A stretch of DNA of 51,203 bases. Source: Candidatus Eisenbergiella pullistercoris (GTDB lineage: Bacteria; Bacillota; Clostridia; Lachnospirales; Lachnospiraceae). The notes beneath the pieces are model-generated. The model had not been told where the DNA came from. It worked only from the letters and a program-made list of their open reading frames with translations, and made no database searches. The position numbers were made by a program, and so were the translations under genes. This document shows, piece by piece, positions 8,304-41,175 of the stretch. Within the stretch, counting starts at the first letter, position 1. The number at the start of each line of letters is the position of its first letter. The stretch spans positions 1 through 51,203 of the forward strand of contig DXDD01000176.1 in NCBI GenBank assembly GCA_019115665.1, read 5' to 3'.

Positions 8304-8469
8304 TACCGTACAAAAATGGTCTCCTCTACGGTACAAACTTCAAAAAATCTGTTTTTGGCCGTACTGAACGGTGTAATCGTACGGTAAATATTCCGAAAAT
8401 CCTATTTTTTTCCGTATCAGCTCCTTTTTTGTACGGTTACCATATACTGACTGCCATTTTGTAACCGTA
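8304..8469. repeat. 53-bp-period inverted-repeat array, copy 1
   Basis: CCGTA occurs at 8306, 8359, 8412 and 8465, exactly 53 bases apart. TACGG occurs at 8327, 8380 and 8432 (53, then 52). Each TACGG is followed by CCGTA after 27-28 bases of variable AT-rich sequence, then a spacer of about 16 bases. The array sits in the 618-base gap between the fucose operon and the divergent AraC gene, between their predicted promoters. The same geometry recurs at 35039-35356 with different internal sequence. Confidence 0.85.
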
Positions 8470-9660: not shown

Positions 9661-12251
9661 AGGAACCGGTCGCAGATCCCTTCCTCCGTGATCCCCGCAT
9701 CCAGACTCCCTATGGTATCGTTCCACAGGCAGTAAATGGCTCCCGCCGTACGGGACGACCAGGCAGGCAGAAGCTCTGTCCGGCCTCCCAGGGGATATTC
9801 ATTTGCCTCCCAGTCCGCAAGGGCCTCCAGATCCAGATAGTCGTAGCCGCCCCCGGGAATGAGGTACAGGCTGCTGTTCAGGGAATTGATCACGGTATAG
9901 CCCGCCTGCCAGGTTTTCAGAGGATCCGACCAGTCGGCGCTCCAGATCTGAATCTGGATCTGCTCCGGCGAAACCGCCGCTTCCTCCCCTTCCTCCCACA
10001 GGCGGTACGCATTCTGTCCGGTACGCCCCTCCTTCCGGTTCGCTTCTTCAATCAGGCGAAGGCTTCCCCACATCCGGACCGGGCGGCCGCTTTCCGCGGC
10101 CAGGCTGACCATCTTCCGCATATAGTCCCGGTAATCCTGCACATCCCCGTAATATTCATCCATGCCGATATGCACGGTTCCCCCTTCCGCGAAAACCGGA
10201 TCCTCTCCCTCCAGATATTCCTTCCAGAGTGTCTCCGTCAGAGAGAGCGTTTCCTTCCGGGAAAGATCCAGCTGGTCCACATTTTCCGGCTCATCCGCCA
10301 GAGCCGCTTCCGGAAACACCTTTGTGAGCGCAAGGCTGTGCGCCGGCGTGTCGATCTCCGGAACCACCTCGACGCCGAATCCGGCCGCCCATTCCACGAA
10401 TTCCTTCCACTCCTCCTTGGTAAACGCGCCGTCCTGCGAGGTGATCCCCTCTCCTTTCTCATTTTGCAGGGAGGATTCCAGCCGGAAGCCGGAATAGGCG
10501 GTAAAAGCATTTTCCAGGCTGTCGTTTTTCCCGCTGGTGGAAAGGATCTCATTATCGTTCAGGTGTATGCCGAGGGTGTTCATTTTGTGGGCGGACAGCT
10601 CCAGGACCATTTCCCGCAGGGTTTCCATGGATACCATCCGTCTCCCGATATCGATGGAGAAGCCTCTCACGCTGCAGCGGGGATAATCCCGGATCACGCC
10701 GCAGGGGATCCCGCCCGCGACGTGACCCTGCCCGGCATTCTCCTGTCCCGCAGCATTCTCCTTCCCCAGATCTTCCGTTTCCGCCCCCGTTTCCTCCAGA
10801 AGCCTGCAGAGGGTGTTCACGCCCCAGATCAGTCCCTGGCTTTCTTCGGCCAGAAGGACGATACCGTCCCTTTCGATCTCACACAGATAGCCTTCCTTCC
10901 CAAGTCCCAGCTCCCCGGAAGCCGTCCCAAGCCGGATATCCCCGGCGCTTTCGCCCGCGGATCCGGCTTCCGCCTCCTCTGTCGGAACGCCTGTGGACCC
11001 GGCTTCCGCCTCCTCTGTCCGAACGTCTGTGGGCCCGGATTCCGCCTCGTCTGACCAGACGACCTCGGCCCTGTTCCCAAGCGCCTCCTGCAGGCGGGCG
11101 ACCGCCTGGGGAGCCTCTTCCTTCCACCTGGCGTCCGCAAGGATCCGGATCTCTTCTCCGGGGAGGAAGCTGCCGCTTCCGGCACGCCATTCTGCCGCCC
11201 CGCTGACCGCCTGCGGCCGCGTACTGTCCGCGGAAACCTGTCTGTCTGTCGGGTGCAGGCTGTCCGCGGCTTCTTTTTCCGCTGGCTGTCCGCTTTCCGA
11301 AGCGGACGCCGTCTTCTTGCCCGCGAAAACGCCGTCCTCCTCCCAGGCTGCCGGGACCGTGACCGGATAGCCGGGAGTCGTCTCCGTTTTCCCGTCTCTG
11401 GAAAGAAGGAAGCCCACCTCCACCTCTTTTTCCTCCACCGTGGGATATACCATGCCGTCCCTGCCGATCACTTCCTCATAATCCGCTCCCGCAAGCTCGA
11501 TCTGAACGCCCTCCGGCACTTCGGGAAGCGCAAGCCTCCGGCTGCCGTCCGCCTCCGTTTCCACCCGGATATCCTGAAGCGACCAGGAAAGCGGGACTTC
11601 CTCATACAGCTCCGCTTCCAGAAGGGATACATTCTGATAATACAGATACTGATTCTCTTCGCTCTCAGACACCGCAGTCGTACGGATGCGGAAATACCTT
11701 CCCGCCGCAGGGCTGTCAAGCGTCAGGCACTGCTCGTTTGCTTCCGGCGCTTCCTCCGCCCGGGCCGCCGTCACCCAGTCCGTCCCGTTCCGGGAGCTTT
11801 CCAGCACAAAGCCCTCCACGTTCAGCCTCTCCCAGTACAGCCGGACAAAGGAGATCCTTCTTTCCTCCGGAAATTCAAACATCAGCCAGTGGGACGGCTG
11901 CCCCGGCTCATTGGCGGAAGACCACCGGCTGTCCGAATCGCTGCGATTCCCGTCCGCCGCCTTTTCAGGAGAAAACGCTTCTGTCTCCGTGCTGTCCGCC
12001 GTCACGCGCACGCCCTCCGCCAGCGCCAGGTTCACCATCTTTTTTCCGGAAGCGCTTCCAGCCGGAAAGCTTTCCGCCTCCTGCATATCCACGCTCCCGC
12101 CTTCTTTCCGGCCGTCTCCGGAAAGGAAAATGGCCAGAGCCGCGCACAGAAGCAGGACGGCCGCAGCCGCGGCCGCCCCCTTTTTCCAGAGCTTTCTGTC
12201 CCAGAACTTTCTTCCCTGATCCCGCTTTCCTTTCCGTTCCTTTTTTTTCAA
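9624..12251 (-). CDS. GH20 beta-N-acetylhexosaminidase with F5/8-type domain, membrane-anchored
   Basis: The 875-residue protein starts with a Lys-rich segment and one hydrophobic helix (about residues 28-46), so it is exported and anchored. A discoidin/F5/8-type C domain follows (about 70-190; DGNRSDSDSRWSSANEP). A GH20 N-terminal domain ends with LIWGVNTLCRLLEE. The catalytic barrel begins at CSVRGFSIDIGRRM. EIDTPAHS and HIGMDE supply the catalytic Asp698-Glu699 pair. The family removes terminal GlcNAc or GalNAc from glycans. Residues about 395-440 carry a 12-residue acidic repeat (TEEAEAGSTGVP) copied in DNA. The start is TTG, overlapping the previous stop as TTGA, which couples it to cobO. 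Confidence 0.9.
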   Translation of the reverse strand: MKKKERKGKRDQGRKFWDRKLWKKGAAAAAAVLLLCAALAIFLSGDGRKEGGSVDMQEAESFPAGSASGKKMVNLALAEGVRVTADSTETEAFSPEKAADGNRSDSDSRWSSANEPGQPSHWLMFEFPEERRISFVRLYWERLNVEGFVLESSRNGTDWVTAARAEEAPEANEQCLTLDSPAAGRYFRIRTTAVSESEENQYLYYQNVSLLEAELYEEVPLSWSLQDIRVETEADGSRRLALPEVPEGVQIELAGADYEEVIGRDGMVYPTVEEKEVEVGFLLSRDGKTETTPGYPVTVPAAWEEDGVFAGKKTASASESGQPAEKEAADSLHPTDRQVSADSTRPQAVSGAAEWRAGSGSFLPGEEIRILADARWKEEAPQAVARLQEALGNRAEVVWSDEAESGPTDVRTEEAEAGSTGVPTEEAEAGSAGESAGDIRLGTASGELGLGKEGYLCEIERDGIVLLAEESQGLIWGVNTLCRLLEETGAETEDLGKENAAGQENAGQGHVAGGIPCGVIRDYPRCSVRGFSIDIGRRMVSMETLREMVLELSAHKMNTLGIHLNDNEILSTSGKNDSLENAFTAYSGFRLESSLQNEKGEGITSQDGAFTKEEWKEFVEWAAGFGVEVVPEIDTPAHSLALTKVFPEAALADEPENVDQLDLSRKETLSLTETLWKEYLEGEDPVFAEGGTVHIGMDEYYGDVQDYRDYMRKMVSLAAESGRPVRMWGSLRLIEEANRKEGRTGQNAYRLWEEGEEAAVSPEQIQIQIWSADWSDPLKTWQAGYTVINSLNSSLYLIPGGGYDYLDLEALADWEANEYPLGGRTELLPAWSSRTAGAIYCLWNDTIGSLDAGITEEGICDRFLQPLSLLSGKLW

Positions 12252-13617: not shown

Positions 13618-14295
13618 TCAGTAATTGATCCCCTTAATGGCCAGCGCGCCGTCCACCACTCCGAAGGTGATATTGGGGACATCGTCCGCAGACACGACGA
13701 ATCCCGCCATGCTGGCGGAAAGGCCGCTCAGATCCGCGCCTGCCACAGCCTCCATCAGCTCAGGCGTAAAGATGCGGTCCGCGCCGAGCGCCACAAACTC
13801 TTCTCTGGATGCGGGCGTTGCGCTTTCCTCCGGGAAGCCGACATAGACCGGATACGCCGTCAGATCTGCCAGCGCTTCCAGATCCTGCGCCGCCACCGCT
13901 TCCTGGATCTTTGCGGCAAAAGCCGCGGCCGCCTCGCTGTCCACGGCAAAGTTATCCGCATAACCCTCTGTCGCCTCTTCTGTCTGCGCGGCGCTCTCCT
14001 GCGTCTCAGCCGCTGCAGAACCTTCCGAAGCGGAAGTCTCCTCTGCCGCAGCAGTCTCCTCCGCTGCGGTAGTCTCCTCCGCTGCGCTCTCCGCCGCTGC
14101 AGTGGTCTCCTCCGCCGCCTCTTCCGTTCCGGCGGTCTCTTCCGCCGCTGCGGTCTCTGCCGCCTGCGTGCTCTCCTGCACCGTTTCCGCCGCAGGCGCG
14201 GACGCCTGCGTGCTCTGTGTCTCCGCGCTCTGTCCGCAGGCTGCCAGGCAGAGTCCCAGAAGACCCGCCGTTACGATCGTCATTGCTTTTTTCAT
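13618..14295 (-). CDS. Lipoprotein with acidic Ala/Glu/Thr linker
   Basis: The 225-residue protein starts MKKAMTIVTAGLLGLCLAAC, a lipoprotein signal with lipobox LAAC, so it is anchored at the outer face of the membrane. Residues about 25-100 form a low-complexity linker rich in Glu, Ala and Thr (EETTAAEETAAAEE). The C-terminal domain (about 105-225) reads FAAKIQEAVAAQDLEALADL and later ITFGVVDGALAIKGINY, which could be an NTF2-like fold with a short variable region. The ATG at 14295 has GAGGAG at the right distance. I do not recognise a specific family or function. Confidence 0.85.
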   Translation of the reverse strand: MKKAMTIVTAGLLGLCLAACGQSAETQSTQASAPAAETVQESTQAAETAAAEETAGTEEAAEETTAAAESAAEETTAAEETAAAEETSASEGSAAAETQESAAQTEEATEGYADNFAVDSEAAAAFAAKIQEAVAAQDLEALADLTAYPVYVGFPEESATPASREEFVALGADRIFTPELMEAVAGADLSGLSASMAGFVVSADDVPNITFGVVDGALAIKGINY

Positions 14296-17071: not shown

Positions 17072-18489
17072 TCCTCTTCCTCCAGTTCTGCCCCATCTTC
17101 CGAACTGCCGTCAGAGAACCCCTCCGGCAGTTCCGCCTTCCTCTCATCCAGGAGCCGGATCAGCTCCGCCGCCACATGTTCCCCGAGAATCCGGTAGCCC
17201 TCCTCGTTGGGATGCACCCCGTCCGGCATCAGATGAAGCACATTATCCCTGTCATGACCGTCCAGAATGTTGGAATTGTACAGGTCGAACACCTCCAGCC
17301 CATGCTCCCCGGCAAGAGTCAGGATCGTCTCCGGAAACGCCTCCTGAGGCATCAGATATTTCCGCCGGGCCTTCAGATAATCCTGCAGACTGTTGGGCAG
17401 CGGCGTCAGAAAGATCACCTCCGCCTCCGGATAATCCTCCTTCAGTCCTTCCATCAGCTCATCCAGATCTCCCCAGAAGGTGCGCGGCGCACGCTCCTTT
17501 TCATTTCCAAACTCCACAAAGCTGGCGCAGAACCCGTCGTTGGTCCCGCCCATCACCAGGATCAGATCCGTATCCTCCGGGATCTTACTGTACCGGTCCA
17601 CGAAGGCGTCCGCCCAGTATCTTCCGATGGAGGAGCCGCCGATGCCCAGATTGACCGCTTCCTTCGCCCCCAGCGCCTCCTTCATGATATTCGGCCAGGC
17701 AAGCGCCTGATAATTTTTCAGACTGTCCAGATTCACGGCCTGAGTGATGCTGTCCCCCAGACAGGCGATTTTGATCTCTGAAAAATCAATGTCATTTCCG
17801 GAAATGGTCTTTCTGTCCGCTTCATTGGCCTGCATGGTCTGCCTGTGGGAGCTCATCACCTTCTGCCGGTCCGCAAGCGTCAGCCGCCTGCCAGGCATTT
17901 CCGCAGGCCGGTTTTCGGAAACGCCGTTTCCCGAGACCGCATTTCCGGAGACTCCGCTTTTTGAAGCTCCGTTTCCCGAGACCGCATTTCCGGATATTCC
18001 GCTTTTTGAAGCTCCGTTTTCTGAGACCGTATTTCGGGAAACGCTGTTCTGAGAAACAGAATTCCGGGAAACTGTGTTGCGGGAAACAGCGTTTTGAGAA
18101 ATACTGTTCCTGGAAACACCGTTTCGGGAAACACTGTTTCCTCCTCCCGACGGCCGCAGGAGGAGCAGCGCCGGAATTCTGTTTTCGGAAATCTGATCTC
18201 CTGAAACAGAATTTTCTGAAATCCGGTTTTCGGAAACCTCCTCCGTTTTTCTTTCCTCCAGGGCTTCCGTTCCTGCGTCCTGTTCCTCCGCAGCGTCACG
18301 CTCATCCGCGGCGTCCTGTTTCTCCGCAGCGTCACTCTCATCCGCGGCATCCCGCCCGTCCGTCGCTTCCTCCTGTGCGGCAGTCCTCTCCTGCCGGGGC
18401 GCGGCCGAAGCGGCCGATCCGGCGCAGGATAAAAGAAAAACCGCAAACAGGCCGCAGCAGACCGCAGTCAGAAATCCGTTCGTCTTCAT
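17038..18489 (-). CDS. SGNH-type esterase lipoprotein with pentapeptide repeats
   Basis: The 483-residue protein begins with a lipoprotein signal (AVFLLSC). Residues about 30-85 are Asp/Glu/Ala-rich, with DAADERDAAEEQ copies. Residues about 88-200 form a five-residue repeat of the pattern V-S-x-N-x (VSRNTVSRNSVSQNSVS). The C-terminal SGNH domain has block I LGDSIT, block II GIGGSS, block III GGTND and block V DGVHPNEEGY, so the Ser/Asp/His catalytic set is complete. SGNH enzymes usually deacylate lipids or glycans outside the cell. The ATG directly abuts the rlmB stop (TAAATG). Its last 34 bases overlap sigH. Confidence 0.9.
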   Translation of the reverse strand: MKTNGFLTAVCCGLFAVFLLSCAGSAASAAPRQERTAAQEEATDGRDAADESDAAEKQDAADERDAAEEQDAGTEALEERKTEEVSENRISENSVSGDQISENRIPALLLLRPSGGGNSVSRNGVSRNSISQNAVSRNTVSRNSVSQNSVSRNTVSENGASKSGISGNAVSGNGASKSGVSGNAVSGNGVSENRPAEMPGRRLTLADRQKVMSSHRQTMQANEADRKTISGNDIDFSEIKIACLGDSITQAVNLDSLKNYQALAWPNIMKEALGAKEAVNLGIGGSSIGRYWADAFVDRYSKIPEDTDLILVMGGTNDGFCASFVEFGNEKERAPRTFWGDLDELMEGLKEDYPEAEVIFLTPLPNSLQDYLKARRKYLMPQEAFPETILTLAGEHGLEVFDLYNSNILDGHDRDNVLHLMPDGVHPNEEGYRILGEHVAAELIRLLDERKAELPEGFSDGSSEDGAELEEEDWSTQNTATRN

Positions 18490-35038: not shown

Positions 35039-35356
35039 CTACGGGCAAAAAGCCGGTTTTCCTGATTCAGACCGTAGAAAATCTCCTCTCACTACGGAAA
35101 AAAAGCCAATTTCCCTGATTCAGACCGTAGAACATCCCTGAAATCTACGGGTAAAAAGCCGATTTCCCCGATTCCGGCCGTAGAACCCCCCTGAAATCTA
35201 CGGGTAAAAAGCCGATTTCCTCGATTCCAGCCGTAGAACGCTCCTGAAATCTACGGTACAAAAACCAAAATTTCCTGATTTGGCCGTAGTGCGATCCCGA
35301 TCTATACGGATCATCATGCCATTTTTCTGATTTCTGCCGTAGAAGCCTGCACAGGG
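35039..35356. repeat. 53-bp-period inverted-repeat array, copy 2 (six units)
   Basis: Units start at 35039, 35092, 35145, 35198, 35251 and 35304, exactly 53 bases apart. Each is CTACGG-N27-CCGTAG plus a 14-base spacer; in the last unit the first arm is ATACGG. The inner sequence keeps an A-run then GCC-ATTTCC, while other bases vary. Across each spacer the arms can form CCGTAGA-N12-TCTACGG. The arm spacing and period equal those of the array at 8304-8469. Confidence 0.9.
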
Positions 35357-35411: not shown

Positions 35412-35558
35412 GTAACAGTTCAGCCTTCGGCAGAACTGTTACGGCATCCGGCCCATCGCAGCACTCGCTTTATCGTGCAGCGATGGGCCGGATGCTTTCT
35501 GCTGATATGTTTTCGTACGGTCTGCGCAGTAAATGCGCAGACCTGGCTGAACTGTTAC
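35412..35558. mobile_element. MITE-like palindromic element, full copy
   Basis: The 147-bp element has perfect 14-bp terminal inverted repeats (GTAACAGTTCAGCC at 35412, GGCTGAACTGTTAC ending 35558). Inside are a long palindrome, GCATCCGGCCCATCGC with GCGATGGGCCGGATGC (35444-35495), and the hairpin TGCGCAgtaaaTGCGCA. It carries no gene. Partial copies lie at 14405, 25973 and 37292. No transposase is in the window. Confidence 0.75.
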
Positions 35559-35576
35559 ATTCCGTCCCCTTTTTTA

Positions 35577-40289: not shown

Positions 40290-40359
40290 AATACGGGTCT
40301 GCTCCTTTCCTCCCTTTCGGGGCGTCCGTCCTTCCTTCGGTCTGTCTTCTGTCTGTCCC

Positions 40360-40446
40360 GGCTATTCCAGCACGATCTGGCCTGTTTGTCCCGGCTATTC
40401 CAGCACGATCCTGGCCTGTCTGTTTCGGCTATTCCAGCACGATCCT
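40360..40446. repeat. 33-bp triplication at the 3' end of the secreted-protein gene
   Basis: GGCTATTCCAGCACGATC occurs at 40360, 40393 and 40427. The last copy encodes the end of the neighbouring gene (ARIVLE plus stop) and the others lie beyond its stop. Confidence 0.85.
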
Positions 40447-41175
40447 GGCGCAGCCCTCCGGAATGTACCATTCCAGCTCCATCCGGCTTCCGGAAAGAGG
40501 GTCTCTGGTATAGAGCGCCTGACGGCGGATCAGCTCTCCCGCCGCGTCATAAAAGTCCGCGTAAAAGGTATTCATGCCCGGCGTTTTGCTGTCGCCGGAA
40601 AGCAGGGTTCCCGTCACCCGCAGGCAGTCCAGGCCGCTCTCCCGTTCGATCTCCATCCCCGCGATGGCCACGCTGGCTCCGTTTCTTCCGGTCAGGGTGC
40701 TGTTGTAATAAACCATCCGGTCGTCATAAACCGTCACCAGACTGGTTCCCGTCATCTGCGTATAGACCTCCCCGTCCTCCGCAAGACCGCTGCGGATGGT
40801 GATATAATCCACCACAGCCGGGTTGCTGATCCGGTAAACCGCCGCCACCGTCGTGCCGGGCGCGGCCGCCGCCGCGGTCATCTTCGCGGTTCCGTCTCCG
40901 TTATCGGTCAGCACCGCCACGGCGATGGACGGATCCGCCGTCAGCACGGCCATATCGGCAAAGCCGCCGGCAAGCGCATACTCCACCTCGGCGCTTCCCG
41001 TTTCTCCCAGCCCCAGGGAAAGCACCTCCTCTTCCATCTGAATGCTCCCCTCTCCGGAAACCGGAGCCGCCAGCGCGGATATGGGGGAAAGGGCCGAGGC
41101 CGCAAGCGTCCCCGCAAGCAGCAGAGCCGCCGTTTTCTTCTGATTCCGCTTAATTCCATCTCTGATTCTGAACAT
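40429..41175 (-). CDS. Secreted protein of unknown function
   Basis: The 248-residue protein has a signal peptide (KKTAALLLAGTLAASALSP, cleavage likely after ALA). Residues about 40-120 resemble a bacterial Ig-like (BIG-type) domain (LGLGETGSAEVEYALAGG). The C-terminal half has VTVYDDRMVYYNSTLTG and GTLLSGDSKTPG, typical of small beta-rich surface domains. I do not recognise a family. AAGGAGAG precedes the ATG. It lies downstream of the ABC exporter and may be exported or assisted by it. Confidence 0.82.
   Translation of the reverse strand: MFRIRDGIKRNQKKTAALLLAGTLAASALSPISALAAPVSGEGSIQMEEEVLSLGLGETGSAEVEYALAGGFADMAVLTADPSIAVAVLTDNGDGTAKMTAAAAAPGTTVAAVYRISNPAVVDYITIRSGLAEDGEVYTQMTGTSLVTVYDDRMVYYNSTLTGRNGASVAIAGMEIERESGLDCLRVTGTLLSGDSKTPGMNTFYADFYDAAGELIRRQALYTRDPLSGSRMELEWYIPEGCARIVLE

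Follow-up and report, generated by a model that had tools for sequence, protein, structure and literature searches.

An array of short inverted sites in a contig of Candidatus Eisenbergiella pullistercoris (DXDD01000176.1, positions 1 to 51,203; this whole stretch of 51,203 nucleotides is referred to as the window) raises the question of what such an array is and what reads it. By pattern search, the array extends over 35039..35342 (no strand is assigned to this or the following window features) and consists of six 37-bp inverted pairs with a period of 53 bp, namely 35040..35076, 35093..35129, 35146..35182, 35199..35235, 35252..35288, and 35305..35341, each reading TACGG ... CCGTA with 32 bp from start to start. 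Its 12 half-sites are exact, alternate between TACGG and CCGTA over 35040-35341, and follow one another at start-to-start intervals of 32 and 21 throughout. The longer form CTACGG-N27-CCGTAG (on average 0.00 matches per sequence in 100 dinucleotide-preserving shuffles) is found at 35039, 35092, 35145, 35198, and 35251, and with one mismatch (ATACGG) at 35304, in steps of exactly 53 bp. The first-pass annotation had described six such units at 53 bp without an indel; the spacing is indeed exact, but the sixth unit carries A instead of C as its outer base, with the TACGG core intact, and the conserved arm is 5 bp (TACGG) rather than 6. Tandem Repeats Finder catches just part of the array (35039-35289, 4.7 copies, 81% matches), because the unit interiors diverge.

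A second window array of the same grammar was found by pattern search at 8306..8469, with seven half-sites in the interval series 21/32/21/32/20/33. The two arrays had been taken as identical in geometry and arm sequence; they do share a grammar, but the intervals at 8306-8469 vary (20/21 and 32/33), and just one of its arms reads CTACGG. Next to the 35-kb array, at 35412-35567, is a separate dispersed short repeat of ~140 bp with inverted ends GTAACAGTTCAGCC, which was also seen at nine further loci that were fetched, in several cases next to arrays. More short tandem repeats are located at 10952-11053, 14005-14164, 17924-18140, and 40349-40449.

The dispersed repeat family suspected from these two arrays was borne out genome-wide and in other genera. 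In the 3.29-Mb window genome (G000), a search for the exact triplet TACGG-N27-CCGTA-N16-TACGG gave 114 forward and 122 reverse matches, compared with 0 for a reversed control. At least 28 arrays were found in this genome (26 regions fetched from the triplet matches listed), and there are perhaps ~65 in all, extrapolated as 28 x 236/100. Across a Lachnospiraceae sample, the triplet is present in 17 of 397 genomes and 15 of 334 genera (the reversed control gave one match each in six genomes), and the single matches in G101 and G356 fall within longer arrays of 11 and 7 half-sites respectively. A scan of named genomes returned at least 100 stretches, the matches listed including Blautia, Mediterraneibacter, Roseburia, Acetatifactor, Drancourtella, Eisenbergiella, Levyella, and one planctomycete. 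A phage origin was considered and set aside, the four-half-site pattern being absent from all viral contigs searched. In the planctomycete, Rubripirellula obstinata, TACGG/CCGTA arrays (L168 1057-1136 and 5277-5517) have a period of 54, which is a multiple of three, and so may be a coding repeat. Literature searches, in which most papers were represented by their listing and the start of the abstract, did not return a description of this layout, and a text search of a paper on GTAG- and CGTC-tagged repeats (PMC3733652) for taxon terms gave 0 matches.

Near-copy units inside some arrays, e.g., L253, are what a functionless simple tandem duplication (minisatellite) would leave. The arrays in other genera, however, combine this geometry with interiors that are unrelated, strong conservation is confined to the half-sites, and the periods are quantised over homologues of the linked gene described below. 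A tandem duplication devoid of conserved geometry, which the first-pass annotation had named as an alternative, is contradicted by these observations, and we consider a minisatellite origin extremely improbable.

Compiled over 63 genomes, 649 inverted pairs give a motif of TACGG, a weak TT, and then A/T-rich positions 9-12. The inverted arms could pair, and their position is intergenic, as would be expected of RNA hairpins serving as a terminator, a processing site, or a small RNA array: among 49 arrays parsed from 26 window-genome regions, 18 regions of the relatives G004 and G006, and the window, 48 overlap no gene predicted by a crude codon-based caller. The arms do not covary, however, with 77 broken arms facing an intact partner vs. 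1 matched by the same change, which disfavours the RNA-processing role that had been offered as one option for these elements. A covariation check had also been proposed for the interior, where positions 6-14 pair without a clear excess over shuffled partners (the largest, at position 7, is 401 vs. 389.1, sd 7.8). An Rfam search of the window gave 0 matches above the gathering threshold, and the spacing is quantised by helical turns (below). Both neighbouring genes were called for 40 arrays, 11 of which stand between divergent genes and 3 between convergent genes; all 244 pairs of neighbouring genes at these loci include 25 divergent and 27 convergent ones, intergenic length being uncontrolled in this comparison. 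An RNA hairpin function is thus very improbable.

A tRNA search of the window found nothing. A CRISPR array was also considered and rejected, as only the 5-bp half-sites are strongly conserved and none of 20 flanking proteins is a Cas protein (Pfam). Of the 31 genes that have their start towards an array, 20 were compared by Pfam, and no regulon theme emerged; array-facing genes include recA, Spo0A, glnA, mutS2, glycogen phosphorylase, MatE, and ABC, and 4 of the 20 have no Pfam match.

What does accompany the arrays is a nuclease-like gene, in line with the earlier proposal of a consistently linked gene, perhaps encoding a dedicated protein. By unsupervised clustering of the ORFs near arrays, the top family comprises 20 ORFs under 17 labels (some of which are one genome fetched twice), with a median distance of 64 bp from the array and 16 of the 17 within 600 bp; the runner-up, ABC transporters, has 14 labels and a median of 209 bp. 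The window genome contains two copies, of which L226, identified by homology search on a contig other than the window (G000:C126:6730-7518), is full length, has a chain of 14 half-sites upstream, and is taken as the cognate gene, and L227, which is missing the first ~36 residues, is accompanied by 4 half-sites close to its start. Within the genus, the protein is present in 4 of 13 genomes, precisely those whose triplet counts exceed 20 (236, 142, 21, and 21); in the other nine, triplets are found only in G008 (2 + 2), which is without the protein, and G003 (0 + 1).

Across the family sample, a homologue at E 1e-20 is present in 115 of 397 genomes and in 12 of the 17 triplet genomes, and all 10 genomes listed with a homologue of at least 62% identity belong to those 17. 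A second search of the five triplet genomes without a homologue at this threshold turned up fragments in two (G091 and G080) and no match in the other three (G153, G228, and G356). In G091, L280 (G091:C242:15452-15835) is a 165-aa frame that matches the profile at positions 6-135 only, and an array was not found upstream of it. Full-length matches in a phylum sample of 398 genomes come from the own family only (five genomes), and in six genomes of other families the nuclease part alone matches, within frames of 213 to 1,269 aa. Among relatives that have just the nuclease domain, 0 of 6 showed an array in the stretch tested, a weak control given that this stretch is inside the frame where the frame is long. 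An unannotated phage record from human faeces ('Bacteriophage sp.', MT839528.1 380-1120) contains a homologue 32% identical over 90% of the protein. Among plasmids, four records match with the nuclease part only, three of them annotated as AAA ATPase or RecD-like helicase.

The linked protein (~264 aa) combines a helix/three-strand/helix domain at the N terminus with a PD-(D/E)XK nuclease domain. No Pfam family was matched at E 0.01 by more than 1 of 34 members, and NCBIfam gave no match in the 3 members scanned. Residues E161, D192, E207, H208, and E244 are invariant in 34 of 34 alignment rows; the first three are the PD-(D/E)XK acidic residues, and H208 replaces the usual K. On these conserved residues the protein is assigned to the PD-(D/E)XK superfamily, and it may cleave DNA. 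The AlphaFold model (pLDDT 90.3) has a helix at 4-27, three strands at 33-59, and a long helix at 61-96, followed by the nuclease part. Foldseek returned weak matches only, led by the nucleases Bax1, DrdV, and BamHI (best E 0.069). We dropped the idea that the N-terminal domain is AP2-like, as a Foldseek search with this domain alone gave no match at E 0.001; that the domain binds DNA is our guess. The PADLOC model PDC-S68, a group of candidate defence proteins, matches the nuclease part in 34 of 34 members, which indicates a homologous C-terminal nuclease domain. The PDC-S68 profiles have 1,202-1,273 positions, however, whereas the protein described here is ~264 aa long, has another N-terminal domain, and is accompanied by an array.

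Upstream of the homologues, the same architecture is found with different words: TACGT (L239, L253, and L254), TACGA (L240), TTGAC (L244 and L247), and GTGAC (L250), and in distant paralogues ACGCGC, GGCTAA, GCGAAC, and GGTACA. In a free scan of 73 homologue loci (including two same-gene pairs, a truncated copy, and L263, which is only distantly related), a strict 6-mer test accepted an upstream array in 39, and a downstream score of 4.5 or more was reached in 7. The strict test was failed by 34 of the 73; L237, L248, and L251, which fail it, pass a 5-mer test, as does L231. Repeats were recognised by eye in L233, L234, and L241, and none was seen in others (L249 and L256). Arrays with the same word are present on both sides of the gene in L258, L284, and L294, and downstream in L298, L308, and L310. 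In G101, which has seven paralogues, the five that were read (L279, L282, L284, L286, and L287) have different words and periods of 52, 64, 73, 74, and 85. Within the protein, the beta hairpin reads, by eye, RYY or RFY in 7 of 7 members of the TTGAC/TGAC group vs. QYY in the TACGG group, which counts as one event because the seven form one clade.

Spacing follows the DNA helix. In 124 loci, the distance from CCGTA to the next TACGG within 70 bp is 20-21 bp in 464 cases and 30-31 bp in 28, with 0 at 22-28 bp and 32 scattered elsewhere, the 20-21 class being partly selected by the search pattern and the 30-31 class not. The periods of 36 accepted arrays (the 39 accepted upstream arrays minus three close relatives of L226) are 51-54 (23 arrays), 62-64 (6), 73-74 (4), and 84-85 bp (3), i.e., 5, 6, 7, and 8 helical turns; the array of L277 (the G004 copy) mixes 53 and 63 and was scored as six-turn. 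Measured against multiples of 10.55 bp, their mean deviation is 0.61, whereas the random expectation is 2.68 and 0 of 20,000 random sets reached so small a value; the 13 arrays outside the five-turn class give 0.64 with the same step (again 0 of 20,000), and 10.6 bp, the best of six steps tried, gives 0.52. These figures depend on a step (10.55-10.6 bp) that was fitted to these very periods and on a random model drawn uniformly from 48-90 bp. The homologues are also non-independent, with several sister pairs sharing one word, so that the effective number is smaller. The sisters L307 (AGGTAC, 74 bp) and L260 (GGTACA, 84 bp) share a word and are one turn apart, and on the tree the turn classes change several times, with supported branches forcing at least four changes for six turns, at least three for seven, and at least three for eight. 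This helix-phased geometry argues for a DNA-binding protein, and we infer from the spacing that the half-sites would lie on one face of the helix as a DNA binding platform.

Phasing of this kind fits any multimeric DNA-binding protein, and the arrays precede many unrelated genes, as if a nucleoid or transcription factor, neither related nor linked to the nuclease-like protein, bound them and the nuclease gene were one target. Such a factor is improbable, as the half-site word changes with the homologue, the five G101 paralogues that were read have different words, and the presence of the protein tracks the arrays within the genus. That the nuclease-like protein itself binds the half-sites is probable.

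Some arrays may be mobile. Those referred to as class A (G000 and G004) sit in a ~520-bp element with inverted ends GTTACTTTTCAYGG and many copies. Of 26 copies, 10 show both ends, among them two (L066 and L164) that look orthologous, and the 8-bp flanks of these 10 match at 39 of 80 positions vs. 21.5 (sd 4.5) when shuffled, with one perfect pair and lesser signals at 7 and 9 bp. With its terminal inverted repeats and target duplication signal, the class A element is MITE-like. One class A copy of G000 is absent from G004 along with ~100 bp around it, and no autonomous partner was found among inverted end pairs 121-519 bp apart. A P. gingivalis MITE that contains a minisatellite is reported in PMC4596501. 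Class A resembles bacterial MITEs in its size, inverted ends, 8-bp target duplication signal, and copy number, whereas the array grammar as such also occurs in other genera with unrelated interiors, and class A ends were not seen, by eye, in the flanks of the 35-kb array. The 35-kb array is absent from G005, G006, and G008, in which both neighbour genes are kept with 127, 21, and 21 bp between the matched ends; the segment 34847..35509, with the array and part of the neighbouring short repeat, corresponds to 21 bp at the orthologous G006 site. The orthologous locus of G004 ends within the neighbouring repeat, the left neighbour is unmatched at the site in G002, G003, G010, and G011, and G009 has weak matches elsewhere only.

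In REP/RAYT systems, the cognate protein is a Y1/HUH transposase and the palindrome forms a hairpin. The arrays could likewise be REP/BIME-like, i.e., non-autonomous elements mobilised by the linked nuclease, as is thought for TnpA-REP (RAYT): they are inverted-repeat arrays scattered over the genome, some of which adjoin a cognate gene for a nuclease-domain protein, the same word stands on both gene sides in L258, L284, and L294, and three relatives lack the window array at the corresponding site. REP/BIME elements, with which PMC8266576 deals, are dispersed intergenic palindromic repeats with a nuclease-domain protein encoded beside some of them. The likeness ends there, as the protein found here is PD-(D/E)XK-like with no sign of an HUH/Y1 transposase (by Pfam, invariant residues, and weak nuclease folds), the absence of covariation speaks against a hairpin constraint, and the units span fixed helical turns; membership in REP/RAYT was rejected on both the linked protein and the hairpin. 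In addition, class A arrays are in a TIR-bounded element, and the gene follows rpsI at 15 of the 50 homologue loci, from 11 or 12 genomes whose words differ, and so looks vertical. REP/BIME-like mobilisation is therefore unlikely, and spread of the arrays driven by the nuclease is doubtful. This constant place behind rpsI, in contrast to the arrays, suggests that the gene descended vertically and that the arrays spread secondarily.

Taken together, we propose that the array is a multi-site DNA binding platform with its half-sites on one face, most likely read by the N-terminal domain of the cognate PD-(D/E)XK nuclease-like protein (probability about 0.72), which would explain the phase, the co-varying words, and the gene linkage. 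The protein would bind the half-sites as a phased multimer. An array before its own gene could make that gene self-regulated, and we put forward such autoregulation only tentatively. The dispersed arrays would be secondary copies, class A being carried by the MITE-like element; it counts against a platform tied to the nuclease-like protein that the MITE-like ends explain class A dispersal without the nuclease, and so do the 34 homologue loci that fail the strict test, the five triplet genomes without a homologue at E 1e-20, the triplets of G008, the N-terminal domain's want of a structural match, and the absence of a theme among the 20 flanking genes. Plasmid centromere arrays of the sopC type also consist of tandem units with inverted short sites that are read by a cognate protein. 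Unlike these, the arrays described here are on chromosomal contigs, have tens of dispersed copies, and are tied to a nuclease domain.

These arrays constitute a large, unnamed class of intergenic repeats in the Lachnospiraceae, tied to a protein family for which scans against Pfam and NCBIfam gave no model. Their period steps of ~10.6 bp equal the DNA helical repeat across homologues, so that protein-DNA geometry is readable from sequence alone. The nuclease domain is common to candidate phage-defence proteins, which raises the question of function. There is an even chance, in our judgment, that the arrays and their proteins represent an undescribed, fast-diversifying family of orthogonal DNA-addressing modules, with an own word for each protein, units of 5 to 8 turns in front of the gene, and several modules per genome, whose addresses, spread to dozens of sites in some lineages, may serve genome organisation, self/non-self marking, or nuclease-driven spread. 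With so many half-site words occurring naturally, specificity can be tested directly, and the words may provide a set of orthogonal DNA-binding modules.
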